A stretch of DNA of 64,000 nt from positions 110,586-174,585 of the forward strand of contig NZ_REEZ01000008.1 of the NCBI RefSeq assembly GCF_003990445.1. The letters run 5' to 3'. The position numbers and the translations under genes were made by a program. Under the pieces are notes generated by a model. That model saw nothing but the letters and a program-made list of their open reading frames with translations, did not search any database and had not been told where the DNA came from. Positions 50,100-63,164 of this stretch are shown piece after piece (position 1 is the first letter of the stretch; each line of letters starts with the position of its first letter). The DNA is from Pararhodobacter zhoushanensis. Lineage in GTDB: Bacteria > Pseudomonadota > Alphaproteobacteria > Rhodobacterales > Rhodobacteraceae.

Positions 50100-50852
50100 A
50101 TGGATATCCTGATCTTGATCGCGGCGGCATTTGGCGCAGGGGTGCTGAACACCGTGGCGGGGGGCGGAACGTTTCTGACCTTTCCGGCGCTGGTGTTCGT
50201 CGGTTTGCCGCCGGTGATGGCCAATGCGACCAGCACGGTTGCGGTGTTCCCTGGCTATCTGGGCGGTGTCGCGGGATTTCGCGCCGAGTTGGGCGCGTTC
50301 GACCGCAAGCGCCTTGTTCGGCTGAGCGCGATCACGCTCGCAGGCGGGCTCGTCGGCTCGGGCTTGTTGCTGGTCTCGTCGAATGACGCCTTTTCGGTCG
50401 TCGTCCCGTTCCTGCTGCTGGCGGCGACGCTGGCGTTTGTGTTCGGCGATGCCGTGCGCCGGTGGGCTGCGGCGAGTGCCCGCTCGGTGACGCCGGAAGG
50501 GGCGTTGGGGCTGTTCGCGGTGTCCGTGTATGGCGGGTATTTCAACGGCGGGCTGGGCATCGTGCTGCTGGCACTGTTCGCGCTGTGGGGCATGACGGAT
50601 CTCAACCGGATGAATGCGCTGAAATCGGGGTTGAGCTTTCTGCTGTCGGCAATCTCGGTTGCGGTCTTTGCCGTGGCAGGGCTGGTGGCCTGGCCACAGG
50701 CGGTGGTGATGATGGTTGCGGCCACGGTGGGCGGGTATGCCGGTGCGCCGCTTGCCCGGTCGCTGCCCAAATCGGTTGTGCGCGCGCTGATTGCCAGCGT
50801 GGGTTTCGGCATGAGCGCGATTTTCTTCTGGCGGCTGCTCAGCGGCGGTTGA
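50100..50852 (+). CDS. TauE/SafE-family (sulfite exporter) membrane protein
   Basis: A 250-residue membrane protein with about eight hydrophobic segments. The N-terminal repeat motif GVLNTVAGGGTFLTFPALVFVGLPPVMANATSTVAVFPG and the second repeat VSVYGGYFNGGLGIVLLALFALWGMTDLNRMNALKSG are diagnostic of TauE/SafE (DUF81). Members export sulfite, sulfoacetate or other organic anions. It is convergent with the first LysR gene (25 bp between stops), so a link with the catabolic cluster is possible but not shown. Confidence 0.88.
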   Translation: MDILILIAAAFGAGVLNTVAGGGTFLTFPALVFVGLPPVMANATSTVAVFPGYLGGVAGFRAELGAFDRKRLVRLSAITLAGGLVGSGLLLVSSNDAFSVVVPFLLLAATLAFVFGDAVRRWAAASARSVTPEGALGLFAVSVYGGYFNGGLGIVLLALFALWGMTDLNRMNALKSGLSFLLSAISVAVFAVAGLVAWPQAVVMMVAATVGGYAGAPLARSLPKSVVRALIASVGFGMSAIFFWRLLSGG

Positions 50853-50877: not shown

Positions 50878-51798
50878 CTAGATATCGTCGACAGCGGCGA
50901 TCAGTTGCGCGCGCAGCCAGTCCAGAGCGGCGTCATGACTGCGCATCCGGTGCCATTGCACGCATTGCTCCATCGGCGCGATCGGCACCGGCGCGTCCAG
51001 TATGGCGATGCCGCCCATCTTCAGCCAGCGCCGCGCCAGCCGCGCCTGAACCAGCGCGATCCGGTCGGTGCCCTGCACCAGATCGGGCAGGGCGGCGAAG
51101 GAGAAGCACGTAACCGGCGTGCGCACCTCGATCCCCAGCGTCCGCAACGCGCGTTTGGCATAGTTCTCGCCAGCCTGATTTTCACCCGCTTGCGGAGGCT
51201 TCATCGCGACGAAATCGGCCGCCAGAAACTCCGCTTCGCTCAGCATGCCCCGCCCGGCGGCATCGCTGTGTGCATCCACGACGCAGACGAAGGGGTCGGT
51301 GAACAGCAGTTCGGACGGATGATCCGGTGAGCAGAACACTGCGGGCGCAACCAGCAGGTCGGCCTCGCCACGCTCCAGTTGTTGGCCCGGATAGCTTTGC
51401 TGCGGCTTGATATCCAGCAGCACATTAGGCGCGGCCCGTGCAACCCGGCGCACGAAGGGGGGCATCAGTGTGTGCAGGGTAAAATCCGACACCATCAGCC
51501 CGACCTGACGGGCCGAGGTCGCAGGATCGAAATCGGGCGGTGCAGTCACCGCCGCCTCGATCCGCACAAGGATGTCGCGCACCGGACCGGCCAAGGCCTC
51601 GGCCCGTGGTGTCAGCTCCATCTGCCGCCCGACCTGCACCAACAAGGGGTCATCAAAATACTGGCGCAGGCGGTTCAGGGCGTTGGACATAGCCGATTGC
51701 GTGATCGACAGCTCTTCCGCCGCGCGGCTGACGCTGCGCAGGCGGATCAGCTTGTCCAGCGCGGCGAGCAGGTTCAGGTCGAGGTTGCGAAAGCGCAT
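50878..51798 (-). CDS. LysR-family transcriptional regulator 1 (NodD/NahR-like)
   Basis: A 306-residue LysR regulator. Its N-terminal HTH reads LDLNLLAALDKLIRLRSVSRAAEELSITQSAMSNALNRLRQYFDDPLLVQVGRQMELTPRA, close to the NodD/NahR subgroup that responds to aromatic inducers; the rest is the two-lobed co-inducer domain. It is divergent from the alpha/beta hydrolase gene and presumably binds the element at 51817-51853 between them. It resembles the second LysR of the cluster (55545-56468). Confidence 0.9.
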   Translation of the reverse strand: MRFRNLDLNLLAALDKLIRLRSVSRAAEELSITQSAMSNALNRLRQYFDDPLLVQVGRQMELTPRAEALAGPVRDILVRIEAAVTAPPDFDPATSARQVGLMVSDFTLHTLMPPFVRRVARAAPNVLLDIKPQQSYPGQQLERGEADLLVAPAVFCSPDHPSELLFTDPFVCVVDAHSDAAGRGMLSEAEFLAADFVAMKPPQAGENQAGENYAKRALRTLGIEVRTPVTCFSFAALPDLVQGTDRIALVQARLARRWLKMGGIAILDAPVPIAPMEQCVQWHRMRSHDAALDWLRAQLIAAVDDI

Positions 51799-51816: not shown

Positions 51817-51853
51817 TGAATACCTGTGATTTAAACTTACAATTTCATAAATG
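51817..51853. promoter_or_regulatory. LysR-type box A (hydrolase promoter)
   Basis: This 37-bp element aligns without gaps to the elements at 56480-56516 and 62738-62774 (minus strand). It matches the ABC-operon element at 23 of 37 positions by eye, including the block GTGATTTA. It ends 50 bp before the proposed hydrolase start, the same spacing as in the cyclase promoter. Confidence 0.55.
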
Positions 51854-51903
51854 GCAACCGCGCCGATATGGTTCCCTCAATCGCGATGATGGAGGAGGCG
51901 GGC

Positions 51904-53061
51904 GTGTTTCGGTATTTTCCGACGAATTATGTGTGGGATCTTTCGGTCAATCTTTCGATCGAAATGGGCGCACGCATGGGTGAGATCGCCGAGATGTGCG
52001 AACCGCTCAAAGAGGCCGCCAAAACCGGGGACGCCGAAGGCAGCGCTGCGTTCCGCGCGGTCTGGACTCCGATGGCCGACAAGCTGATCGAACTGGCGCA
52101 GGAAGACCTGATGCGCGGGCGCTCATTGTCGGCGTCCAACAAGATGATGCGCGCCGCCAACTACCAGATCACCGCCGAGCGCCTGCAAGCGCATGGCTCG
52201 GACGGTCGGGTGGCCCTGTACGCGCGCCATCTGACGACGTTCTACCAAGCCCTGTCGATGGGCCGCAGCGGCGCTTTCCGGGTCGAAATCCCGTATGAAG
52301 GCAAGCACCTGTCGGGCATCTTTGTGCCTGCCGAAGGTGTCGAGGGCCCGCAGCCCGTGCTGGTGCAGGTCAACGGCTTCGACAGCACCAAAGAGATGCG
52401 CTACATGGCGCAGCTGCCCGGCGTTCTGGCCCGCAAGGGCATCGCCTCGCTGGTGCTGGACCAGCCCGGCACCGGGGAAGCGCTGCGTCTGCAAGGGCTG
52501 ACCGCGCGCCACGATTCCGAGCATTGGGCAACGCCGGTCTATGAATGGCTGGCCGCCCGCGCCGATGTTGATGCTGCGCGCATCGGGATCGAGGGTGTCA
52601 GCCTTGGCGGCTACTACGCTCCGCGCGCCGTTGCTTTCGAGCCGCGCTTTGCCTGCGGGATCTCATGGGGAGCCAACCACGACTGGCGCGACGTGCAAAA
52701 GCGTCGGCTTGAGCGTGAGGGCGACTTCCCGGTGCCGCATTACTGGTCGCACGCCTGCTGGGTCTTTGGCGCGACCGATATCGATGACTTCATGGCCAAG
52801 GCCGAAAACATGCATCTGGACGGCGTGCTGGACCGCATCCGCGTGCCCTATCTGGTGACGCATGGCAAACATGACACCCAGATCCCGCTGAAATGGGCCC
52901 ATCGCACGTTTGAGCAACTGGTCAACAGCCCACGCAAAGAGCTGGTGATCTTTGACGAGCGTACCGGCGGCGTGATGCATTCCAGCGTCGATAACTCGGG
53001 CGGCCCGCTCGACACCATTTCCGACTTCGCTGCCGAGTGCCTCGGCGGCCGTACCGCGTGA
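51904..53061 (+). CDS. Alpha/beta hydrolase, 2,6-dihydroxypseudooxynicotine hydrolase-like (C-C hydrolase)
   Basis: A 385-residue alpha/beta hydrolase with an N-terminal helical cap (about residues 1-115), the architecture of DHPON hydrolase, which cleaves a C-C bond in nicotine catabolism. The nucleophile lies in GIEGVSLGGYYAPRA, followed by CGISWGANHDW. The acid is probably in THGKHDTQIPLKW and the base in GGVMHSSVD. GTG 51904 is chosen because GGAGGAGG ends 5 bp upstream, and the spacing from the LysR box then equals that of the cyclase gene; ATG 51868 is the in-frame alternative. First gene of a four-gene + strand run. Confidence 0.82.
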   Translation: MFRYFPTNYVWDLSVNLSIEMGARMGEIAEMCEPLKEAAKTGDAEGSAAFRAVWTPMADKLIELAQEDLMRGRSLSASNKMMRAANYQITAERLQAHGSDGRVALYARHLTTFYQALSMGRSGAFRVEIPYEGKHLSGIFVPAEGVEGPQPVLVQVNGFDSTKEMRYMAQLPGVLARKGIASLVLDQPGTGEALRLQGLTARHDSEHWATPVYEWLAARADVDAARIGIEGVSLGGYYAPRAVAFEPRFACGISWGANHDWRDVQKRRLEREGDFPVPHYWSHACWVFGATDIDDFMAKAENMHLDGVLDRIRVPYLVTHGKHDTQIPLKWAHRTFEQLVNSPRKELVIFDERTGGVMHSSVDNSGGPLDTISDFAAECLGGRTA

Positions 53062-53075
53062 CGACAGGAGATCCC

Positions 53076-54017
53076 ATGCAGATCATCGGCCCCGACCTTC
53101 TGGTCTTTGGCGTGGACGACGTGCCCGCCTGTCATGACTTCCTGACCGCCTATGGCCTTGAGCCGCAGGGATACTCGCCAGAAAAGGGTGGGCTGTATCT
53201 GGCGCTTGACGGTACCGGTCTGGAAATCCGCCGCCGCGACGATCCCTCGCTGCCGCCGGCGCTGAAGACCGGCAGCATGCTGCGGCTTCAGGTTCTGGGT
53301 GTGGTCGATCAGGCTGCACTGGAAGCCGTCGCCGCCGAGCTGGGCCGCGACCGTCTGGTGTTGCATCTGGCCGATGGCAGCCTGCGCACGCAGGACGATC
53401 AGGGGTTCGAACTGGCTTTCCGCGTCACCACGCGCACCCCGCTTGAGCTGGAAGCCGAGAAGATCAATGCGCCCTATCACCCGGGTCGTCCGGTCAACGT
53501 GGTCGGCGTCACGCAGGATATGCCCGCCAAGCCGCGCACCCTGTCGCATATCGTGCTGTTCACGCCCGACATCGACGTGGCGGTCGGGTTCTACCGCGAC
53601 CGGCTGGGTTTCCGTATCACCGACACGCTGACCGGTGCCGGGCCGTTCCTGCGCCCGCAGGCGAATGCCGATCACCACACGCATTTCTTTATCCGCACGC
53701 CGGAATACATGCAGGGGATCGAGCATCTGGCCTGCCACATGGGTGGCCCGACCGAGCTGATGCTGGCGGGCAGCCGGATGATGGAAAACGGCTTTGAAAG
53801 CTTCTGGGGACCGGGGCGGCACAAGTTCGGCTCCAACTGGTTCTGGTATTTCAAAAGCCCGCTGGGCTGCAACGTCGAGTTCGACGCCGACATGGACACC
53901 CATGACGACGACTGGGCCCCGCGCGAAGCACCCATGGGCCCCGAGGCGAGTCAGGCCTTCTTGATGCAGTGGCGCAAGAAATGGGCGCCGGGCGGCGGGC
54001 CGGGGCCCAAGGGCTGA
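53076..54017 (+). CDS. VOC-superfamily extradiol-type dioxygenase
   Basis: A 313-residue protein with two VOC (glyoxalase/extradiol dioxygenase) modules. The metal ligands of the C-terminal module appear as His in RTLSHIVLFTPDIDVAVGFYRDRLGF, His in ADHHTHFFI and Glu in LGCNVEFDADMD, which is the 2-His-1-carboxylate iron site of BphC-type enzymes. It probably opens a catecholic or similar dihydroxylated ring. ATG 53076 has AGGAG about 6 bp upstream. It follows the C-C hydrolase by 14 bp and precedes the Rieske gene by 10 bp. Confidence 0.85.
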   Translation: MQIIGPDLLVFGVDDVPACHDFLTAYGLEPQGYSPEKGGLYLALDGTGLEIRRRDDPSLPPALKTGSMLRLQVLGVVDQAALEAVAAELGRDRLVLHLADGSLRTQDDQGFELAFRVTTRTPLELEAEKINAPYHPGRPVNVVGVTQDMPAKPRTLSHIVLFTPDIDVAVGFYRDRLGFRITDTLTGAGPFLRPQANADHHTHFFIRTPEYMQGIEHLACHMGGPTELMLAGSRMMENGFESFWGPGRHKFGSNWFWYFKSPLGCNVEFDADMDTHDDDWAPREAPMGPEASQAFLMQWRKKWAPGGGPGPKG

Positions 54018-54027
54018 CGCCTGCGCG

Positions 54028-54390
54028 ATGGTGACGGGCGTTCCCCTCACAACGTTGGCCGACTTGCCCGACGGCGACTCGCGCGGGTTCGAGGTCGAGG
54101 GCTGGCGCGCCAAGGTGATCATCGTGCGCAAGGGTGCGCGCGTGTTCGGCTGGCGTGACCTGTGTCCGCATTACGCGGGCGGGACATCCATGGCGTGGCG
54201 GCGCGATGCCTATCTGAACGGCGCGCGCACCCATCTGGCGTGCCACGCGCATGGGGCGTGGTTCGACATTGAAACAGGGGTCTGCGTGCAGGGCGCGTGT
54301 CTGGGCAAGCGTCTGACCCGCGTACCGCTGCGGATCGACGAGGAGGGCGGCGTTCACCTGGACCGGGCGCCAAGGGAGGATAAGGCATGA
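54028..54390 (+). CDS. Rieske-type [2Fe-2S] ferredoxin
   Basis: A 120-residue single Rieske domain. The cluster ligands are C and H in DLCPHYAGG and C and H in LACHAHGAWFD (C-x-H ... C-x-x-H). No oxygenase alpha subunit is encoded here, so the ferredoxin may serve the FAD monooxygenase or keep the dioxygenase iron reduced. ATG 54028 is used. Its stop overlaps the next start (ATGA), so it is coupled to the FAD monooxygenase. Confidence 0.85.
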   Translation: MVTGVPLTTLADLPDGDSRGFEVEGWRAKVIIVRKGARVFGWRDLCPHYAGGTSMAWRRDAYLNGARTHLACHAHGAWFDIETGVCVQGACLGKRLTRVPLRIDEEGGVHLDRAPREDKA

Positions 54391-55508
54391 CGGACACGAA
54401 AAATATTCTGATCATCGGCGGCGGTTTCTCGGGAATGAGCGCCGCCATTCTGTTGGCGGACGCCGGGCATACCGTCGATCTTGTCGAAATCGACAAAGAC
54501 TGGCGCAGCTATGGCGCGGGCATCAGCCTGAACGGCGGCATGTTCCGCGTGTTCGACACGCTTGGCATCCTTGATGCATTTCTCAAGGTTGGCGCGACGG
54601 TGGGCGGGCTGGAAATCCGCGGCCCGGCCGATCAGGTTCTGGCGCATTTGCCGACGCCCTCGCTGCATCCCAAGGCGCAGGGCAACGGTGGCATCATGCG
54701 GCCGGTTCTGGCCCGGCTTCTGGCCGACCGGGTGCGGGCGGGCAGCACCAACGTGCGGCTTGGCGTCACCTTTACCACCATCGACAACGGCCCGACCGGC
54801 GCGCATGTCGCCTTCACCGACGGGACCGAGGGCGATTATGATCTGGTGATCGGTGCGGACGGCCTGTCCTCGGCCACCCGCCGCGCCCTGTTCCCCGATG
54901 CACCCAAGCCGCGTTATGTCGGTCAGGCCGTCTGGCGCGCGGTGCTGCCGCGCCTGGCGCATCTGCCGACGGTTGCGATGTGGATGGGCCCTTCGCTGAA
55001 GGCCGGGATCACGCCTGTGTCGGACACCCAAGCCTATCTCTTCCTGACCGAAGACCGGCCCACCAACGACCGTGTCCCGCCCGAAACCCATGTGGCGACG
55101 CTCAAGGATCTTCTGTCGCGCTTTGCCTCGCCGACGCTGCGCCAGATCGGCGAAGAGCTGAGCGCGGAGAGTCAGGTGGTTTACCGCCCGCTCGATCAGA
55201 TGCTGATGCCGCGTCCGTGGTTCGAAAACCGCGTGGTGCTGATCGGCGATGCGGTGCATGCGACGACGCCGCATATGGCGGCCGGAGCGATGATCGGCAT
55301 GGAGGATGCGCTGGTGCTGGCCGAGGAATTGAACCGTGCCGATATTGACGCCGCACTACCCGCCTTTCAGGACCGCCGTTTTGAACGCTGCCGCATGGTT
55401 GTGGAAAACTCGGGCCGTCTGGCCGAGATCGAGCAGGGACACGGCACGCATGAAGAGCATCAGCGCCTGATGGGCCAGACCCTTGGTGCCCTGGCGCAGC
55501 CGATCTGA
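54387..55508 (+). CDS. FAD-dependent aromatic monooxygenase (salicylate/para-hydroxybenzoate hydroxylase family)
   Basis: A 373-residue group A flavoprotein hydroxylase. The N-terminal FAD motif ILIIGGGFSGMSAAILLADAGHTVDLVE is near residue 7, YDLVIGADGLSSATRR is the DG motif, and RVVLIGDAVHATTPHMAAGAMIGMEDALVLAEEL is the GD motif. It should hydroxylate an aromatic or heteroaromatic acid with NAD(P)H and oxygen. It ends the hydrolase-dioxygenase-ferredoxin-monooxygenase run. The second LysR is convergent, 36 bp away. Confidence 0.9.
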   Translation: MTDTKNILIIGGGFSGMSAAILLADAGHTVDLVEIDKDWRSYGAGISLNGGMFRVFDTLGILDAFLKVGATVGGLEIRGPADQVLAHLPTPSLHPKAQGNGGIMRPVLARLLADRVRAGSTNVRLGVTFTTIDNGPTGAHVAFTDGTEGDYDLVIGADGLSSATRRALFPDAPKPRYVGQAVWRAVLPRLAHLPTVAMWMGPSLKAGITPVSDTQAYLFLTEDRPTNDRVPPETHVATLKDLLSRFASPTLRQIGEELSAESQVVYRPLDQMLMPRPWFENRVVLIGDAVHATTPHMAAGAMIGMEDALVLAEELNRADIDAALPAFQDRRFERCRMVVENSGRLAEIEQGHGTHEEHQRLMGQTLGALAQPI

Positions 55509-55544
55509 GCGCACCCGATGGTGGCGCTGGACTTGGCCTGCGGG

Positions 55545-56468
55545 TCAGCGCGTCCAGCGCCGCGCATTGTCGCGGGCACAGTCGATCACCAGATCGCGGA
55601 ACCACTGCACCGAGGTGTCGAACTCGCGCGTCGCGTGCCACTGCAGGTTCTCGGAAATCGGCGGCACCGGCAGCGGCATCGGCACGGCGCGCAACCCCAT
55701 CTCGGCGGGCAGGCTGGCCCACAAGCTGCGGTGCATCGTGGCCACCCAAGGGGTGCCGCGCAGGCAATCTGCCAGCAATGAGAAACTGGGCACGCTACAG
55801 GCGACGTCCAGTTCAACGCGGGTATCTTCGATCCATTGTTCAAAATGACTGCCGCGCCACGTCCCGCCGAATTCGGTGACGACATGGCGCTGCGACAGGT
55901 AGGTCGCGGCGTCCATGGACTCGCCGATCTGCGGGTGATCGGCTGAGATCACGCAGATGAAGTCATCGGTAAACAAGTGTCGGTGCGGGTGATCCTTGTA
56001 CAGAAACCGGTCGGGGATCACGGCGAAATCCACCTCGCCCCGGTGAAACCGCGCGTCCGAGGGCGCGTCGATGGGCACCATTTGCAGCGACACGCCGGGC
56101 GCTTCTTGGGCGAGGCGCGGCAAGAGCTGCGCGAACAAGACCTTGAGGACGAAATCCGAGGCGATGATAGAGAACCGCCGTGTCGCGGTGGCCGGATCGA
56201 AGCCCGGGCGCATCTGGCTGAAGTGCCGGGTGTCGTTCATCAACTGCGTCGCCGCTTCGAGCAATTGCAGGCCAAATTCGGTCGGCTGCATCTGGCGGCC
56301 AACCTGCGCGACGATGGGATCCTCGAAATGATCGCGCAACCGACGCAGCGCCTGACTGAGCGCCGGTTGCGTCAAATGCAGTTCAAACGCCGCCGCCGAG
56401 ACTGAACGCAGGCGCAGAATGGCTTCCAGCGCGATGATCAGATTCATGTCCAGCCGGTTCAACCGCAT
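55545..56468 (-). CDS. LysR-family transcriptional regulator 2 (NodD/NahR-like)
   Basis: A 307-residue LysR regulator. Its HTH LDMNLIIALEAILRLRSVSAAAFELHLTQPALSQALRRLRDHFEDPIVAQVGRQMQPTEFGLQLL is clearly related to the first LysR. It is divergent from the cyclase-amidohydrolase operon and lies between the two halves of the catabolic cluster. It probably binds the element at 56480-56516. Two paralogous regulators over one pathway suggest sequential or two-inducer control. Confidence 0.9.
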   Translation of the reverse strand: MRLNRLDMNLIIALEAILRLRSVSAAAFELHLTQPALSQALRRLRDHFEDPIVAQVGRQMQPTEFGLQLLEAATQLMNDTRHFSQMRPGFDPATATRRFSIIASDFVLKVLFAQLLPRLAQEAPGVSLQMVPIDAPSDARFHRGEVDFAVIPDRFLYKDHPHRHLFTDDFICVISADHPQIGESMDAATYLSQRHVVTEFGGTWRGSHFEQWIEDTRVELDVACSVPSFSLLADCLRGTPWVATMHRSLWASLPAEMGLRAVPMPLPVPPISENLQWHATREFDTSVQWFRDLVIDCARDNARRWTR

Positions 56469-56479
56469 GATGCCTGTTC

Positions 56480-56516
56480 CTTATGGAAGTCATACTTCCT
56501 ATTCATTCGACATATG
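56480..56516. promoter_or_regulatory. LysR-type box B (cyclase promoter)
   Basis: This 37-bp element matches the minus-strand element upstream of the ABC transporter at 28 of 37 positions by eye, including ATTCATT and GACATATG. It contains the inverted repeat GGAAG/CTTCC. Its 3' end is exactly 50 bp before the cyclase ATG. Confidence 0.65.
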
Positions 56517-56566
56517 CTTAACCCACCCGTACGGTATTCGCAATTCAAGGCACTCTCGGGGGGAAT

Positions 56567-57340
56567 ATGGCACGTCGCATCGTCGATCTTTCGGTAAGTC
56601 TTAAGGCCGGGATCGCTTCGGACCCGCCACCGCTGCTGCCCAAGATCCGCTATTTCGACCACGACCATGGTGCCAAGGATTTCGCGCCGATGCTGGGGCT
56701 GCGCCCCGAGCAGATGCTCGAGGGCAAGGGCCCGGCCTCGGAAGAAATGGAAATCACCACCCATGTCGGCACGCATATGGATGCGCCCTGGCATTACCAC
56801 CCGACCATGAACCGGGGCGAGCGCGCCATTACCATTGACGAGGTGCCGCTGGACTGGTGCATGGGGCCCGGCGTCAAACTGGACTTCCGCCACTTGCCCG
56901 ACGGCCATGTCGTCACCGCCGCCGAGGTTGAGGCCGAACTGGCGCGCATCGGTCATACGCTGTCACCGGGCGATATCGTGCTGGTGAATACGGCCGCCGG
57001 GCTGCGCTATGGTGAGGACGACTACCTCGCCAAAGGCTGCGGCATGGGGCGCGAGGCGACGCTGTATCTGACCGAACGCGGCATGAAGGTCTGCGGCATC
57101 GACGCCTGGAGCTGGGACACGCCGCTGATCCACCAGAAGGCCGAGATTGCCCGCACCGGCAACGCGGCGCTGTGCTGGGAAGGCCACAAGGCCGGGGCCG
57201 AGTCGGCCTATTGCCATATGGAAAAGCTGTCGAACCTCGAATCCCTGCCCGCGACCGGCTACACCGTCTGCGCCTTTCCGGTAAAGGTCGCCGGCGGCTC
57301 GGCGGGCTGGGTGCGCGCCGTCGCCATTTTTGACAGCTGA
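56567..57340 (+). CDS. Cyclase-family hydrolase (kynurenine formamidase-like)
   Basis: A 257-residue metal-dependent cyclase/formamidase family protein. The signature THVGTHMDAPWHYHP (about residues 66-80) supplies His and Asp metal ligands of the HxGTHxDxPxH type. Members hydrolyse N-formylkynurenine, isatin or other amides and lactams. ATG 56567 has GGGGGA upstream. It is followed 4 bp later by the amidohydrolase. In this cluster it could open a lactone or amide after ring cleavage (inference). Confidence 0.88.
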   Translation: MARRIVDLSVSLKAGIASDPPPLLPKIRYFDHDHGAKDFAPMLGLRPEQMLEGKGPASEEMEITTHVGTHMDAPWHYHPTMNRGERAITIDEVPLDWCMGPGVKLDFRHLPDGHVVTAAEVEAELARIGHTLSPGDIVLVNTAAGLRYGEDDYLAKGCGMGREATLYLTERGMKVCGIDAWSWDTPLIHQKAEIARTGNAALCWEGHKAGAESAYCHMEKLSNLESLPATGYTVCAFPVKVAGGSAGWVRAVAIFDS

Positions 57341-57344
57341 TCTG

Positions 57345-58382
57345 ATGAGCGGTTTTGACAATCCCTTGCCGACCGGCCAATTGACCCGCCCGGACGTGCC
57401 TTGCGTCATCGACATGCACGGCCATTGCGGTGCGCCCGAGGCCGAGGCCTTGCTGGCCTCGCGCCCCGAACGCGCCGCCGAAATGGGCGCGCAGGCCCGC
57501 AGCACCGGCGCGGCGTCCAGCCAGCACAACCGCACGGTCATGCTGCCCGCCGCCGGGGCGCGCATGGCGTCGCTGGAGAAGCGGCTGGCCGATCTGGACC
57601 TGATGGGCGTCGACGTTCAGCTCGTCGCGCCCTCGCCGCATCTCTATGCCTACTGGGCTGATGAGGGGCTGGCGGGTGAGCTTGTCGCCGTGGTGAATGC
57701 CGCAGCGGTGGCGCTGGTGGCGCGCGCGCCCGAGCGGCTGGCCGGGATGGGCATGGTGTCGATGCAGTACCCTGATCTGGCCGCGCAGCAGATCCATGCG
57801 GCCAAGGCGGCGGGGCTGAAGGGGATCGAGATCTCGGCCTCGGTCGGTGAGCGCGAGCTGTCGGACCCGGTGTTCACCCCGGTCTGGGCCGCTGCAGAAG
57901 AGACGGGCCTGCCGGTGTTCATCCACCCGCTGGGCACCTCACTGGGTGCGCGACTGGACCGGTTCTATCTGTCCAACACCATCGGTCAACCGGTCGAGAC
58001 GACCATCGCCCTGACCGGCCTCATCCTGTCCGGCGTGCTGGACCGTCATCCCCGCCTGAAACTGGTGGGTGCGCATGGCGGCGGTTATCTGCCCGCCTAT
58101 ATCGGGCGCGCGGATCACACATGGTGCGTACGGCCCGAGGCGCGGGGGTGTGCTGCGTTGCCGTCGGAATACCTGTCGCGGATCTGGGTGGATACGGTGG
58201 TGTTCGACCGGACGCAGCTGTCCGATCTTGTGCAGCGGATGGGGGCGGACCGGGTCATGTTCGGCACCGACTATCCGTTCGACATGGCCGATTGCCGCCC
58301 CGATCAGGTGGCCGCCGCGCTGCCGCTTTCGGCGCGCGCGGCGGTGATGGGCGGCACCGCGGCCGCCCTGTTCAACCTTTGA
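57345..58382 (+). CDS. Amidohydrolase 2 (ACMSD-like) family protein
   Basis: A 345-residue TIM-barrel metal enzyme of the amidohydrolase-2 family, which includes ACMS decarboxylase and several aromatic acid decarboxylases. Metal-binding features are DMHGHCG (HxH), FIHPLGTSLG (His), GAHGGGYLPAYIGRADH (His) and FGTDYPFDM (Asp). ATG 57345 is preferred to an upstream in-frame TTG. A decarboxylase role fits a ring-cleavage pathway. It is convergent with the FAH-family gene, with an 11-bp overlap of the 3' ends. Confidence 0.87.
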   Translation: MSGFDNPLPTGQLTRPDVPCVIDMHGHCGAPEAEALLASRPERAAEMGAQARSTGAASSQHNRTVMLPAAGARMASLEKRLADLDLMGVDVQLVAPSPHLYAYWADEGLAGELVAVVNAAAVALVARAPERLAGMGMVSMQYPDLAAQQIHAAKAAGLKGIEISASVGERELSDPVFTPVWAAAEETGLPVFIHPLGTSLGARLDRFYLSNTIGQPVETTIALTGLILSGVLDRHPRLKLVGAHGGGYLPAYIGRADHTWCVRPEARGCAALPSEYLSRIWVDTVVFDRTQLSDLVQRMGADRVMFGTDYPFDMADCRPDQVAAALPLSARAAVMGGTAAALFNL

Positions 58383-59337
58383 CCACGCGCTGGTCGATGG
58401 CGCCGAACATCGGCGTGCCATCGGCGGCGCGGCATTCCATGCGCACCGTCTCGCCAAAGGCCATGAACGCGGTCTTGGCGGCGCCGTGGTCCAGCATCTC
58501 GATTCCCCGGCGTTCGGCGATGCACGACGAGCCGACCTCGCGGTAATTGTCGTTCGACACGGTGCCCGAGCCGATCACGGTCCCTGCCACCAGACGGCGG
58601 GTCCGCGCGGCATGGGCGACCAGTTGGTCAAAGCCGAAGGCCATGTCGTACCCGCCCGCCGCGCCAAAACGCTCACCGTTCCAGTCGACGATCAGCGGCA
58701 GATCCACACGCGCATCGCGCCAGCTTGCGCCCAGCTCATCCGGGGTCACGGCAACGGGGGCCATCGAGCACGCAGGCTTGGCCTGAACCCAGCCAAAGCC
58801 GGTGCGCATCTCGATCGGCGCGACGGTGCGCAGCGACCAGTCGTTGATCTGCACGACCAGTCGGATATGGCCAGCGGCCTGAGCCGTATCAGTGCCCATC
58901 GGCACCGCATCACAGATCACACCGAATTCACCTTCGAAATCAATGCCGTCATCTTCCGTGGGCAGCGCGACATCCGCCGTCGGGGCCAGAAACTGGTCCG
59001 ACAGGCCCTGATACATCAGCGGCCGGGTCTTGTCGGCGTGGTTGTCGATGCCAAACACCTTGGCCATCAACTCGCCGTGGCTTGCATAGGCCGACCCATC
59101 CAGCCATTGCCACGCGCGCGGCAGCGGCGCCAGCGCGCTTGCCGGATCAAACGCCATGCCGCCGCCAGTGTTCAGCGCGTCGTATTGGGCTTGAAGCGAA
59201 GGGGCCAGATTGTCCCAGTCTTCGATCAGCGCCTGAAGCGTCGCCGCTGCCTCGGCGGGGACGGCGCGCGTCAGGTCGCGGCTGACAAGATGAAGGCGCC
59301 CGTCGGGCGTGCCATTGGCAAGGGTGGCGAATTTCAT
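58372..59337 (-). CDS. Fumarylacetoacetate hydrolase-family protein
   Basis: A 321-residue FAH-fold protein. Metal ligands are expected in DGIDFEGEFGVICDAVPMG (acidic residues near 135) and VVQINDWSLR. GSGTVSNDNYREVGSSCIAERRGIEML is the late FAH motif. Family members hydrolyse fumarylpyruvate or acylpyruvates, or act as MhpD-type hydratases, all typical late steps of ring-cleavage routes. ATG 59337 has GGAG about 7 bp upstream. It is the last gene of the ABC transporter operon, behind a strong hairpin. Confidence 0.88.
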   Translation of the reverse strand: MKFATLANGTPDGRLHLVSRDLTRAVPAEAAATLQALIEDWDNLAPSLQAQYDALNTGGGMAFDPASALAPLPRAWQWLDGSAYASHGELMAKVFGIDNHADKTRPLMYQGLSDQFLAPTADVALPTEDDGIDFEGEFGVICDAVPMGTDTAQAAGHIRLVVQINDWSLRTVAPIEMRTGFGWVQAKPACSMAPVAVTPDELGASWRDARVDLPLIVDWNGERFGAAGGYDMAFGFDQLVAHAARTRRLVAGTVIGSGTVSNDNYREVGSSCIAERRGIEMLDHGAAKTAFMAFGETVRMECRAADGTPMFGAIDQRVVKG

Positions 59338-59358
59338 GGTTCTCTCCCGGTGTCGCAA

Positions 59359-59383
59359 ATCGGCGGGGCAAGGCCCCGCCGAT
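59359..59383. terminator. Intercistronic hairpin after the NitT/TauT binding-protein gene
   Basis: ATCGGCGGGGC (59359-59369) and GCCCCGCCGAT (59373-59383) form a perfect 11-bp stem with a 3-nt loop. It lies between the binding-protein stop and the FAH-family start on the minus strand, with no U-tract. It probably stabilises the upstream mRNA or lowers downstream expression. Confidence 0.65.
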
Positions 59384-59408
59384 ATCGTGAGGTGGTTATG
59401 TCGCCGGT

Positions 59409-60353
59409 TTACTCAGCCGGGAAGGGGATAACGAAGGTCTCAAGATCGATGGGCTCGTAGATCAGGCCCTGACGCACCGCGAGGTCGTTCCAGAAACCAA
59501 GGCTGACCTGCGGGTCCAGCGCGCCGCCAAGGTTGGGCAGCGGCACATTCGCCACGACGGGCGGCGGCAGGGTGGTGTAGCGGGCGATGCTTTCGCGGGC
59601 TTCGGCCTCGTGCTCGCGGATGAAGTCGGCAGCCTCGATCAGCGCCCGTTGCATGCCTTCGATGGCCTCGGCGTTTTCGGCAGCCCAGTCGGCGGTAGTG
59701 ACAAAGATACCGGCGGCAGAGCCGTCGGGGATCACGTCGAAATAGTTGCCGATCAGACGCCCGACACCCGAATCCACCGCCCGGCTGGAGAAGGGATCGA
59801 CGCTGGCCACGGCGTCAACCTGCCCGGCACGGATCGCGTCGCCGGTTTGCGGCAGGGCGATTTCGACGATATTCACCTGCGACAGGTCGACGCCATTCGT
59901 GCTGAGCCACTGGCGCATCGTGACGTCCAGCAATCCACCGACACCCGGCACGCCGACCGTCTTGCCGACCAGATCCGCCGCGGTTTCGATGCCGCTGTCC
60001 GCACCGACGACGACGCCCGCGTTCGCGGTTTCGGGGAAGATGTTGGTCGAAGCGAAGGCGCGCAGATCAAGCCCGTTCTCGATGGCCTGAAAGGCCACCG
60101 TCGGCGTAGGCAGACCGACTTCGGCCGAACCCGACACCACACCCGCCACGATCACCGAGCCGTTCTGCGCCATCTGCAGATCGACATCGACGCCGTGGTT
60201 GGCGAAAAAGCCCTGATCGGTGGCAACCCAGGCGGTCATGAAGCCCGTGGTTGCGGTGTAGAGCAGCGTGACATGCGTGCGCTCTTGCGCCTGCAGCGGT
60301 AGCGCCATGAGCGCGACGGCCGCGCTGGCCAGCATAAGGGTTCTGCGTTTCAT
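59409..60353 (-). CDS. NitT/TauT-type ABC transporter substrate-binding protein
   Basis: A 314-residue periplasmic protein of the NMT1/SsuA/TauA-like family. A signal peptide ends near LPLQAQE (residue 22). VTLLYTATTGFMTAWVATDQGFFANHGVDVDLQMAQNGS and LVGKTVGVPGVGGLLDVTMRQWLSTNGVD are the expected N-terminal features. ATG 60353 begins the signal peptide. It is the fourth gene of the ATPase-permease-permease-binding protein operon. The family carries sulfonates, nitrate, thiamine precursors and aromatic acids; the cluster suggests an aromatic acid. Confidence 0.88.
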   Translation of the reverse strand: MKRRTLMLASAAVALMALPLQAQERTHVTLLYTATTGFMTAWVATDQGFFANHGVDVDLQMAQNGSVIVAGVVSGSAEVGLPTPTVAFQAIENGLDLRAFASTNIFPETANAGVVVGADSGIETAADLVGKTVGVPGVGGLLDVTMRQWLSTNGVDLSQVNIVEIALPQTGDAIRAGQVDAVASVDPFSSRAVDSGVGRLIGNYFDVIPDGSAAGIFVTTADWAAENAEAIEGMQRALIEAADFIREHEAEARESIARYTTLPPPVVANVPLPNLGGALDPQVSLGFWNDLAVRQGLIYEPIDLETFVIPFPAE

Positions 60354-60381
60354 TCCATGTCCTCCCGACATTGGGTTGCGT

Positions 60382-61146
60382 TCAGCGACGCTGCCAGCGC
60401 AGCGCATAGGTTTCGACCAGCGACAGAACAGCGTTGGTCAGCAGGCCGATCACGCCCAAGACGGCGATCCCGGCAAAGATTTCGGGCGCGTTGAAGGCCC
60501 GCGCGGCCAACAGGATGCGCGCGCCCAGTCCGCCCTGCACCGTGACCATCTCGCCCACCACCACCAGAATCAGCGCAATCGTCAGACCCAGTCGCAGCCC
60601 GCCCATGATGTCGGGCAGCGCGCCCGGCAGCGCGATCTTGGTGATGAAGGCGCTGCGGCTCAGGCCCAGCGATGTGGCGACCTCGCGGCGACGGATGTGG
60701 ATGTTGGAGAATCCGTGCACCGTGGTCAGCAGCATCGGCCATAGCGCGCCAAAGGCGATCAGCGTCAGGATCATCGTGTCGGTCAGACCCAGAAACAGCA
60801 TCGCCACTGGCGCGATGGCCGAGGCTGGAAGCGGGCGCAGCGCCTCGAACATCGGCGCGATCCAGACCCGCGCCCAGGCCGAGGTGCCGACGAAGGCCCC
60901 CAGCGCCACGCCGATCAGCGAGGCCAGCGCCCACCCCAGCGCCATGCGGCGCAGCGTGGTCAGCGTATCGGACAGCAGCGAGCCATTGGCGACGCCGCGT
61001 TTGAGCGCGCGCCATGTCAGGTCGGGGCCGGGGAAGAACGCCCGCGGCAAGACGCGCGCATCGGCAAGGATCTGCCACCCCCAGATCAGCCCGACCAACA
61101 GGGCAAGCGAGGCCAGAAACCACAGGCTGCGGTGAAAAAGGGTCAT
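60382..61146 (-). CDS. NitT/TauT-type ABC transporter permease 2
   Basis: A 254-residue BPD-type permease with about six hydrophobic segments. The family motif EVATSLGLSRSAFITKIALPGALPDIMGGLRLGLTIALILVVVGEM (EAA loop) lies in the second half. ATG 61146 overlaps the stop of the preceding permease (ATGA) and has AGGAG upstream. The open frame extends much further upstream inside the neighbour and is ignored. Confidence 0.88.
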   Translation of the reverse strand: MTLFHRSLWFLASLALLVGLIWGWQILADARVLPRAFFPGPDLTWRALKRGVANGSLLSDTLTTLRRMALGWALASLIGVALGAFVGTSAWARVWIAPMFEALRPLPASAIAPVAMLFLGLTDTMILTLIAFGALWPMLLTTVHGFSNIHIRRREVATSLGLSRSAFITKIALPGALPDIMGGLRLGLTIALILVVVGEMVTVQGGLGARILLAARAFNAPEIFAGIAVLGVIGLLTNAVLSLVETYALRWQRR

Positions 61147-61895
61147 CGCTCGCTCCTGCTCATGGCCGGGAAGAGCCAGCTTTGCAGCCGCAACATCCCC
61201 CAGTTCAGCGCCCAGCCCAGAAAGGCGATCCAGAACAGCGTCGCGAACATGTCCTCGGGCCGGAGCGACGAAGCGGCGCGCAACAGCCGTGATCCAAGGC
61301 CAATCGGGTTGGCGGCGATCTCGACGGTAATCGCCACGATCAGCGCGATCCCGGCTGCGAGGCGCAGCGCAACGAACAGGCGGGGAAGCACGGCGGGCAG
61401 CACGATCTTGGTGATCCGCGCCCACGCGGTCAGCCCCAGCGCGCGGGCGACCTCGGACAGACGCGGCTCGACCTGACGCACGGCGCTTTCGGTCAGCACC
61501 AGCACCGGAAAGCAGGTGGCGAAGGCGACGATAGCGACCTCAAGCTGATAGCCAAAGCCAAAGATCAGCAGCGCGATCGGCACAATGGCAATCGAGGGAA
61601 GCGGGCGCAGCAGCTCGACCGTCACGCGCAGGATGCGCGACACCGGCGGCACCAGCGCAAACAGGATGCCCGCGCCTGCGCCCACCGAGAACCCCAGTGC
61701 CAGGCCCATGCCGCCAGCCGCCAGCGTATCGCCGGTATCAACCCAGAACGGCGCGCTGGTCAGCCCGTTCACCAGCGCAACCAGAATACCGTCCGGCGCG
61801 GCCAGCGTGTCGCTTTGCATGCCCGTGGCCATCGCCGCGATCTGCCACACAATCAACAGGCCAATCGGCAGGACCAGTCCCTTGAGTGCCGTCAT
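61143..61895 (-). CDS. NitT/TauT-type ABC transporter permease 1
   Basis: A 250-residue permease. LLRPLPSIAIVPIALLIFGFGYQLEVAIVAFATCFPVLVLTE and the EAA loop EVARALGLTAWARITKIVLPAVLPRLFVALRLAAGIALIVAITVEI are characteristic of SsuC/TauC. It is distinct from the second permease, so the channel is probably a heterodimer. Its start overlaps the ATPase stop by four bases. Confidence 0.88.
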   Translation of the reverse strand: MTALKGLVLPIGLLIVWQIAAMATGMQSDTLAAPDGILVALVNGLTSAPFWVDTGDTLAAGGMGLALGFSVGAGAGILFALVPPVSRILRVTVELLRPLPSIAIVPIALLIFGFGYQLEVAIVAFATCFPVLVLTESAVRQVEPRLSEVARALGLTAWARITKIVLPAVLPRLFVALRLAAGIALIVAITVEIAANPIGLGSRLLRAASSLRPEDMFATLFWIAFLGWALNWGMLRLQSWLFPAMSRSER

Positions 61896-62695
61896 TGTTC
61901 GTATCGTTCGATGAAGTCAAAGAGCTGCCGGCGCAGGCGCAGGAATTCGGGCATCTCGCGCGTGGTCAGCTGGTTGCGCGGCTTGGGCAGCGGCACGTCA
62001 AAGATCTGGCTCACGCGCCCCGGATTGGGCTCCAGCGCGATGATCCGGTCGCCCAGATAGATCGCCTCTTCCAGATCATGCGTCACAAAGAACGCCGTCA
62101 CCTGGCTTTCAGCGACGATCCCCAGCAGTTCGTCCTGCAGCTTTTGCCGCGTCATGGCATCCAGCGCGCCGAAGGGCTCGTCCATCAGCAGCACGTCGGG
62201 CTTTTGCGCCAGACAGCGGGCGATCTGCAGGCGTTGCTGCATGCCGCCGGACATTTCAGCGGGGAATTTCCCCTCGCTGCCGACCAGCCCGACGGTGCGC
62301 AGCAAGGCGTGGATCTGATCGCGGCGCTCGGCACGCGGCACACCCGCTGCTTCCAGCGCGAGCGACACGTTACCCTCGGCATCGCGCCACGGCAGCAGGG
62401 CGTTGGTGTAGTCCTGAAACACGATGGCGATGTCACGCGAGGGTGCGCGATGCGGCTGACCACGGAAATCGACCGAGCCGCTTACTGGCGTCAACAGCCC
62501 GGCCAGCAAGCGCAGCAGGGTGGTCTTGCCGCTGCCCGAGGGGCCGATCACGCAGACAAACTCGCCCCGGTTCAGCGACAGCGACAGATCCTTGAGGACC
62601 GTGGTTGCGCCATAGCGCACGCTTGCCTCTTGTACCGTCAAAACGGTATCGCGCGGCGCATCCATCGCGCTGGTGGCGTGTTCACTCAATGACAT
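61892..62695 (-). CDS. NitT/TauT-type ABC transporter ATP-binding protein
   Basis: A 267-residue ATPase of the SsuB/TauB type. Walker A GPSGSGKTTLLR, Q-loop IVFQDYTNALLPWRDAEGNV, signature MSGGMQQRLQIARCLAQ, Walker B VLLMDEPFGALDA and switch FFVTHDLEEAIYLGDR are visible. ATG 62695 has GGGAGGA about 6 bp upstream. It is the first gene of the operon that ends with the FAH-family gene and lies 42 bp after the LysR-type box C. Confidence 0.92.
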   Translation of the reverse strand: MSLSEHATSAMDAPRDTVLTVQEASVRYGATTVLKDLSLSLNRGEFVCVIGPSGSGKTTLLRLLAGLLTPVSGSVDFRGQPHRAPSRDIAIVFQDYTNALLPWRDAEGNVSLALEAAGVPRAERRDQIHALLRTVGLVGSEGKFPAEMSGGMQQRLQIARCLAQKPDVLLMDEPFGALDAMTRQKLQDELLGIVAESQVTAFFVTHDLEEAIYLGDRIIALEPNPGRVSQIFDVPLPKPRNQLTTREMPEFLRLRRQLFDFIERYEQ

Positions 62696-62737
62696 CGCGG
62701 TCCTCCCGGCTCGTGGCACCCTAGGGGTGGGGCTTGG

Positions 62738-62774
62738 CATATGTCAAATGAATGGGATAAATCACTTGTATTAG
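62738..62774. promoter_or_regulatory. LysR-type box C (ABC transporter promoter, read on the minus strand)
   Basis: Read on the minus strand, this 37-bp element aligns with box B (28/37) and box A (23/37) without gaps and in the same orientation relative to the gene. It contains CATATGTC at its proximal end and TAAATCAC in the middle. It lies 6 kb away from either LysR gene, so shared control is likely. Confidence 0.6.
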
Positions 62775-62848
62775 CATATCTTATTCCAAGCGAGAGCCAT
62801 TCTGACAGCGCTTGCGTTTCAGGGGACGCGTTTGGGATATCTTGAATT

Positions 62849-62906: not shown

Positions 62907-63164
62907 ATGCAGACCCAAACCCTTCGCGACGCTACCGGACTCAGCCAGATGCTGCGCAGCCGACGTAAGGAAATGGGTCTGACCCAGGAACAACTGGGCC
63001 AACGCGCGGGATTGGCGGCAAAGCATGTCTCGCGGATCGAGAACGGCACGCATGAACCCAAGGTTTCCACGCTCTTTGCCCTGATCTCGGCGCTCGATCT
63101 TGACCTCGTGCTGGGCGAAAAGGGCACGGTTGCGCCGGTTCCGTCGGTTGCGGATATCTTCTGA
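62907..63164 (+). CDS. hipB: HipB-like antitoxin (XRE-family HTH)
   Basis: An 85-residue XRE/Cro-type DNA-binding protein. The HTH spans LSQMLRSRRKEMGLTQEQLGQRAGLAAKHVSRIENGTHEPKVSTLFALISALDLDLVL. In HipBA systems HipB neutralises the HipA kinase and represses the operon. ATG 62907 has TGAGG about 7 bp upstream; an in-frame ATG at 62832 precedes the operator-like palindromes. Its stop (TGATG) overlaps the hipA start by one base. Confidence 0.88.
   Translation: MQTQTLRDATGLSQMLRSRRKEMGLTQEQLGQRAGLAAKHVSRIENGTHEPKVSTLFALISALDLDLVLGEKGTVAPVPSVADIF

Follow-up and report, generated by a model that had tools for sequence, protein, structure and literature searches.

Organization of the cluster

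The window analyzed here, a 64,000-nucleotide stretch of the Pararhodobacter zhoushanensis genome (contig NZ_REEZ01000008.1, positions 110,586 to 174,585), carries a catabolic gene cluster in which three operons are each preceded by a 37-bp element: A (51817..51853, plus strand; TGAATACCTGTGATTTAAACTTACAATTTCATAAATG), B (56480..56516, plus strand; CTTATGGAAGTCATACTTCCTATTCATTCGACATATG) and C (62738..62774, minus strand; CTAATACAAGTGATTTATCCCATTCATTTGACATATG). An earlier note on this DNA regarded the three as a single element that unites uptake and degradation in one local regulon. Comparison with related genomes instead makes it highly probable that the cluster contains two operator types served by two neighboring, paralogous LysR regulators, LysR1 controlling the Hyd operon through A, and LysR2 controlling both the Cyc operon and the ABC/FAAH operon through B and C.

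Element A overlaps the predicted −35 hexamer of the Hyd operon and adjoins the divergent LysR1 gene (50878..51798, minus strand, 306 amino acids), its proposed regulator. The genes that follow A on the plus strand were assigned by family searches as Hyd, an alpha/beta hydrolase with a GTG start (51904..53061); Glx, a glyoxalase/extradiol dioxygenase-fold protein (53076..54017); Fdx, a Rieske-domain protein (54028..54390); and FMO, a monooxygenase dependent on flavin adenine dinucleotide (FAD) that scores above the cut-off for the NCBIfam PRK06847 subfamily (54387..55508). Element B lies next to the LysR2 gene (55545..56468, minus strand, 307 amino acids), the proposed regulator of B and C, which is divergent from the plus-strand genes Cyc, a putative cyclase (PF04199; 56567..57340), and Amd, an amidohydrolase_2 family member whose best solved relatives are ACMSD decarboxylases (57330..58382). 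Element C precedes a minus-strand operon of ATP-binding cassette (ABC) transporter genes (59409..62695), in the order ATPase, two permeases and an NMT1/SsuA-like binding protein, that ends with FAAH, a member of the fumarylacetoacetate hydrolase family (58372..59337; the ATG was chosen within an open reading frame (ORF) at 58372-59358).

The distances from the elements to these start codons are, as previously given, 50 bp (GTG at 51904), 50 bp (ATG at 56567) and 42 bp (ATG at 62693-62695, minus strand). The GTG start of Hyd proposed earlier is supported, as it follows a purine-rich, ribosome-binding-like stretch in 6/6 aligned loci, and the alternative ATG at 51868 falls within the predicted −10 hexamer (51867-51872). 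The longest ORF for the ATPase (start 62740) begins within element C; the ATG at 62693-62695 is preceded by GGGAGG.

Both regulators contain the Pfam domains HTH_1 and LysR_substrate, and they share 34% identity. Their recognition-helix regions differ consistently, reading SAMSNAL(N/T)RLR in seven LysR1 rows vs PA(L/V)S(Q/R)AL(R/G)RLR in six LysR2 rows. Scores against the NCBIfam models of named regulators (BsrA, LeuO and others) are far below the cut-offs, with LysR1 reaching 152.9 vs 480 for BsrA and 113.8 vs 262 for LeuO, and LysR2 reaching 145.9 and 115.2; thus, neither protein is one of these named regulators.

Similarity among the three elements

The coordinates and the gap-free alignment given in the earlier note are correct, as are its identities of 28/37 for B–C and 23/37 for A–C; A and B share 16/37. 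Significance was assessed with dinucleotide shuffles of the intergenic stretches, taking the best register in 37-bp and 25-bp windows. The best 37-bp match of B and C (28) is reached in 0/2000 shuffles, that of A and C (24) in 3/2000, and that of A and B (20) in 409/2000, and the three-way score, driven mainly by B–C, in 0/500. With 25-bp windows the corresponding counts are 0/2000, 339/2000, 807/2000 and 1/500. The likeness of B and C is far beyond chance, that of A and C is marginal, and that of A and B is not significant.

Five relatives are informative for this comparison. G018 is a near twin of the window (96-100% identity). G009 and G006 carry the LysR2-Cyc-Amd/FAAH-ABC block at 76-87% identity and, ~8 kb away on the same contig, the LysR1-Hyd-Glx-Fdx-FMO block. 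G017 and G016 contain the LysR1 block and a cyclase gene and lack LysR2. LysR1 orthologues that are 63-67% identical adjoin an A element in G006, G009, G016 and G017. Identity between A and C is 23/37 in the window and 22/37 in G018, and falls to 13/37 in both G009 and G006, whereas A itself is conserved at no fewer than 29/37 positions among six genus members and B–C identity is at least 24/37 in the five genomes with both sites. The view that all three are one shared element is therefore not upheld; a 23/37 match seen in one genome may point to a single regulon, and comparison across genomes then reveals two.

Two site types

Each site type has its own consensus. The eight B and C sites of four genomes (B/C is conserved in G018, G009 and G006) give CT.AT...A...AT.......ATTCATT.GACATAT, and the A sites of six genomes (A is conserved in G018, G017, G016, G009 and G006) give TGAATACC....ATT.A.ACTTACAATTT.AT.AATG. 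Conservation in relatives, whose absence would by the earlier note have refuted its reading, holds for the elements as two types rather than one. Sequence-only profile models, one per site set, were scanned against eight whole genomes at E<=10, namely the window's own (G000), G018, G006, G009, G016, G017, G010 and G023. With the B/C model, B and C and no other site come up in every LysR2 carrier (G000, G018, G006 and G009); the model has zero matches in G016, G017 and G010, members of the genus without LysR2, where the best LysR2 match is 34-35% identical. The A model reports one full site in each of six genomes (G000, G018, G006, G009, G016 and G017), none in G010, and a weak match in G023 (E 2.24) that lies between LysR1 and Glx and agrees with A at 26/37 positions. 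In G009 (E 0.16) and G017 (E 0.76) it also finds half-sites directly after LysR1. Neither model reported the other site type in the eight genomes, and no one model recovered A, B and C together.

Because the profile models include sites that they recovered, position weight matrices (PWMs) were also built from held-out sites and scored at 127,928 positions in the window. When the matrix is trained on the G009 and G006 copies of B and C, B leads (42.9), followed by C (40.7), with the next position at 13.3 and A ninth at 9.1. When it is trained on four A sites from genomes other than the window's, A takes first place (48.5) and C second place (13.1), and B is 56th (−1.3); with a matrix from two C sites, A ranks 60th. 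The earlier note had proposed a weight matrix and a search for further sites; built from relatives, the matrices separate A from B/C, and the whole-genome scan with the B/C model yields only B and C in the window's own genome. Since each site type keeps to its own LysR gene and the models pass over the other type, two adjacent LysR regulons are indicated.

The LysR2 type also occurs in more distant genomes. In Aminobacter sp. J41, which belongs to a different order, the Hyphomicrobiales, one of the genome's two B/C matches falls in the LysR2–Cyc gap (E 0.0012) and the other immediately ahead of the ABC ATPase gene (E 0.0007). The Rhodobacteraceae bin NORP153 has a B/C match (genome-wide E 0.0028) lying between the ABC operon and a divergent LysR2 gene (60%). 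In Rhizobium rhizoryzae an ABC-Cyc-FAAH run comes after a LysR2 homologue (47%), and the ABC promoter holds the only copy in 16.9 kb of the AT frame described below, with TCATTCGACA in register; this site was located through the frame and so is not independent evidence for it, and a frame match is present in 53/200 shuffles of that locus, where the frame alone is weak. Both B/C-type sites thus accompany LysR2 in five genomes and one site does so in two more, as expected of a LysR2 regulon. Element C is ~6.3 kb from its proposed regulator in the window, with LysR genes adjoining A and B, and the ABC-operon site adjoins LysR2 in NORP153 and R. rhizoryzae.

Both models were further run, with a threshold of E<=0.01, on 394 genomes of the family; stricter filters were applied and the best 16 or fewer candidates were scored per listed genome, so absence from these scans is weak evidence. 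Among the candidates scored, the B/C model matches the two sites of the window and one position in G101, and the A model matches G000, G016 and G124. The G124 match is full length, lies between LysR1 and Glx (E 6e-4) and shares 28/37 positions with A. A protein search for LysR2 in the same 394 genomes (E<=1e-70, best five candidates scored per listed genome) gave none beyond the window's own genome among the matches listed.

Promoter frame and LysR boxes

Twenty sites (8 A, 5 B and 7 C) were compared position by position, numbering each element from 0 and leaving aside two further groups, the Y and Z sites, described below. All 20 carry AT at positions 3, 12, 25 and 34, a frame of AT-N7-AT-N11-AT-N7-AT that has four matches in the 64-kb window (24022, A, B and C) against 0.22 expected. 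In shuffled operators with their flanks, 0/500 exceed three common ATs in one register, and four are observed. A slide test of the invariant letters of A against those of B/C was set aside: register 0 gives nine agreements and one reverse-strand register also gives nine, so this test does not single out a register, and the shuffle and frame-count tests are better.

The predicted −35 hexamer occupies positions 27-32 in every site, and a TANNNT-type −10 is spaced 17-18 nt from it in 17/19 sites checked (the exceptions are A of G124 and C of J41), including 7/8 A-type sites. Predicted core promoters are accordingly placed at 51844..51872 for the Hyd operon (plus strand; −35 TTCATA at 51844-51849, 17 nt, −10 TATGGT at 51867-51872), 56507..56535 for the Cyc operon (plus strand; −35 TCGACA, 17 nt, −10 TACGGT at 56530-56535) and 62718..62747 for the ABC operon (minus strand; −35 TTGACA at 62742-62747, 18 nt, −10 TAGGGT at 62718-62723). 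A generic promoter scan detected none of these three. A terminator scan flagged GGAAGTCATACTTCC within B, and returned eight matches in total where 6.9 are expected.

A resemblance of the elements to LysR-type operators, implied by the earlier note, is supported by the adjacent LysR genes, with their helix-turn-helix and ligand domains, and by T-N11-A boxes. One box, with T at 13 and A at 25, is common to 20/20 sites (51829..51843 in A and 56492..56506 in B, both plus strand; 62748..62762 in C, minus strand). A second register separates the types. T at −9 and A at 3 are found in 5/5 B and 7/7 C sites and in 2/8 A sites, and define an upstream box that in B spans element positions −10 to 4 (56470..56484, plus strand), partly outside the 37-bp element and abutting the LysR2 start codon, and in C lies at 62770..62784 (minus strand). 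In C of G018 and G009 (ATAAG-N5-CTTAT) and in R. rhizoryzae (GCATGAT-N5-ATCATGC) this box forms a perfect inverted repeat, and in the window's C it is, by eye, one base off ATAAG-N5-CTTAT. Conversely, register 0-12 (51817..51829 in A, plus strand) is typical of A, being present in 8/8 A, 0/5 B and 1/7 C sites. The left border of the 37-bp element thus cuts through the conserved upstream box of B and C, whose operator measures ~47 bp, and the element begins mid-box. Invariant positions number 11/16 in B/C and 12/16 in A over positions 21 to 36, compared with 4/17 and 8/17 over positions 0 to 16. Taken together, what A has in common with B and C appears to be mainly a LysR/promoter frame and not a recognition sequence.

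Alternative explanations

Several observations weigh against two cleanly separated regulons. First, A retains some likeness to the other type: C ranks second under the A matrix, and a matrix from two B sites places A fifth (14.5; a chance match scores 16.6). Some cross-binding between the types may occur, including LysR1 at C. Second, some sites fit neither model fully. The Y sites, which are the cyclase promoters of G017 (L025:10119-10155) and G016 (L027:8927-8963), where LysR2 is absent, keep the AT frame and are matched well by neither model; within their own loci they rank third (22.9) and sixth (7.6) under the A matrix and second (16.9) and third (7.8) under the B/C matrix, respectively. 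Of the four ATs of the frame, the Z sites, at four loci, retain the first two only. Third, some B/C matches are partial or misplaced. The ABC site of J41 covers model positions 14-39 and that of NORP153 covers 18-40, NORP153 has a second match (E 0.12) away from cluster genes, the G101 match (E 0.007) is in a genome without the cluster, a weak match in G023 (E 0.089) is beside a different LysR gene, and the R. rhizoryzae locus has no B/C model match. Finally, T-N11-A is a weak motif that recurs at 22-34 (11/12 B/C sites) and at 4-16 and 21-33 (8/8 A sites), the best conserved half overlaps the −35 so that part of the conservation is the promoter itself, and the conserved CCTTAT at B may, by eye, also serve translation of LysR2.

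One alternative that would accommodate the likeness of A and C is layered control, in which LysR1, besides acting at A, has a weak effect at C and could thereby call for uptake as well as control the Hyd operon. The rank of C under the A matrix and a LysR1-linked promoter before a transporter gene in four relatives, where the window has a different gene, are in its favor, and a precedent exists in PnpR and PnpM, which share the pnpC promoter (PMC5603801). We consider it unlikely, as the score of C (13.1) is far below that of A (48.5) under the A matrix and A–C identity is 13/37 in G009 and G006, even though these genomes have the other transporter promoter.

Quite unlikely, and rejected as the principal interpretation by the cross-scoring and the relatives, is a single regulon in which one LysR protein, or both interchangeably, acts on A, B and C. 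Such a regulon would agree with the same register, orientation and place of the three elements relative to the −35 and −10, with the three-way likeness and common AT frame (0/500 shuffles each) and with the A–C identity of 23/37. It does not explain why A and C share 13/37 positions in G009 and G006 despite retention of both LysR genes and all three promoters, why each model passes over the other type, or why G016 and G017 have A sites without LysR2 and without B/C sites. It is very improbable that the likeness is promoter DNA only, with the AT-rich −35/−10 regions of the three promoters standing out against a window of 64% GC and no regulator site being present: the invariant −35 position, the TANNNT hexamers and the better conservation of the −35-overlapping half would fit, but conservation extends 27-37 bp upstream of the −35, B/C matches number exactly two per genome in four genomes, and sites in another order retain both sequence and gene linkage.

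Proposed regulation by LysR1 and LysR2

With two LysR regulators as the preferred interpretation, the following mechanism is proposed. LysR2 would bind B and C, probably as a tetramer, with one dimer on the upstream T-N11-A box ~66 bp before the predicted transcription start and the other downstream near the −35 hexamer. The upstream box is centered near −66 if the predicted −35 hexamer starts at −36, and the usual LysR recognition site lies near this position according to PMC5603801 and PMC4730206. In the presence of a pathway inducer, LysR2 may then allow RNA polymerase to start the Cyc-Amd and ABC-FAAH operons. Joint control of both would switch on import and degradation steps together, and it is in this respect that the local regulon of the earlier note survives: B and C would link the ABC transporter to Cyc, and a placement of the Hyd operon behind A under the same element is not supported. 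At B, LysR2 may also limit expression of its own divergent gene. LysR1 would act likewise at A on the Hyd-Glx-Fdx-FMO operon through a different sequence.

A more tentative idea is that the two paralogues split a once-common operator into non-interchangeable types while the rigid AT-N7-AT-N11-AT-N7-AT frame was kept, and that specificity resides mostly in the −35 half rather than in the upstream recognition box. Doubtful as this is, it would if true mean that the activation sites of this LysR group follow a readable code; according to PMC5603801 and PMC4730206, no conserved activation-site motif for LysR regulators is known.

Neighboring genes in the window and in relatives

The nearest solved structure to Hyd is 2,6-dihydroxypseudooxynicotine hydrolase (PDB 2jbw, E 8.1e-19); the similarity is remote, and it is this match that supports the C–C hydrolase label in the earlier note. 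Family, structure and literature searches did not settle the pathway substrate, and no paper on this cluster was found among the titles listed from the open-licence literature. In NORP153 (L080:4394-6965) the LysR2-ABC block adjoins HpaB- and LigB-family aromatic-degradation genes, which hints at an aromatic substrate. An additional FAD monooxygenase gene (410 amino acids, L022:5186-6418) separates Glx from Fdx in the near twin G018 and is missing from the window (54015-54027); at this place a monooxygenase-like match is present in G009 (26%) and none in G006.

Just after LysR1 in G017 (L025; e.g., L025:4974-4992), in G016 (L027) and in G006 and G009 (together L042 and L043), a promoter includes the first half of an A-type site. 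The gene that follows encodes a DctP-type binding protein of a tripartite ATP-independent periplasmic (TRAP) transporter in G016 (PF03480) and has a similar beginning in the other three; in the window this place is taken by a different gene, in convergent orientation (50100-50852). LysR1 may therefore also be tied to uptake in these four relatives. The weak B/C match in G023 (C3:280557-280583, 15.5 bits) lies 13 bp before another LysR gene whose product is 28% identical to LysR2, and is perhaps a third related operator. Upstream of the ABC operon, and diverging from it, are a small protein with, by eye, an XRE-type helix-turn-helix (62907-63164, plus strand) and a larger gene next to it, possibly a HipB/HipA-like pair.

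Relation to known LysR systems

This is ordinary LysR regulation in an unusually clear form, a known kind of biology. Its value lies in assigning precise predicted targets to two unnamed LysR proteins of a catabolic cluster, the LysR2 part of which occurs in two orders, the Rhodobacterales and the Hyphomicrobiales, and in the A and B/C models, which are usable for annotation and biosensor work. A and B/C further constitute a matched pair of LysR operators with different sequence and common geometry, useful for learning how paralogues avoid cross-talk.

Presumably both regulators belong to the DntR/NahR/NodD group. They resemble it in their HTH_1 and LysR_substrate domains, in the T-N11-A boxes, in the location of the site near the predicted −35, and in a LysR2 plasmid match annotated as NodD3 (35%). 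The best full-length solved relatives of LysR1 and LysR2 are the same chains, 2uyf, 5ae4 and 1utb, which we take to be DntR; the top structural match of LysR2, 9iib, covers the ligand domain only. No perfect AT-N7-AT-N11-AT-N7-AT frame is present in the first 50 kb of NAH7, a stretch that includes the nah and sal promoters; allowing up to one mismatch gives six matches, of which one lies at the nah promoter. The PnpR/PnpM system (PMC5603801) likewise places two related LysR proteins in one degradation cluster. There, however, both proteins bind the pnpC promoter and PnpR acts on several operons, whereas the two site types in the window separate by operon.

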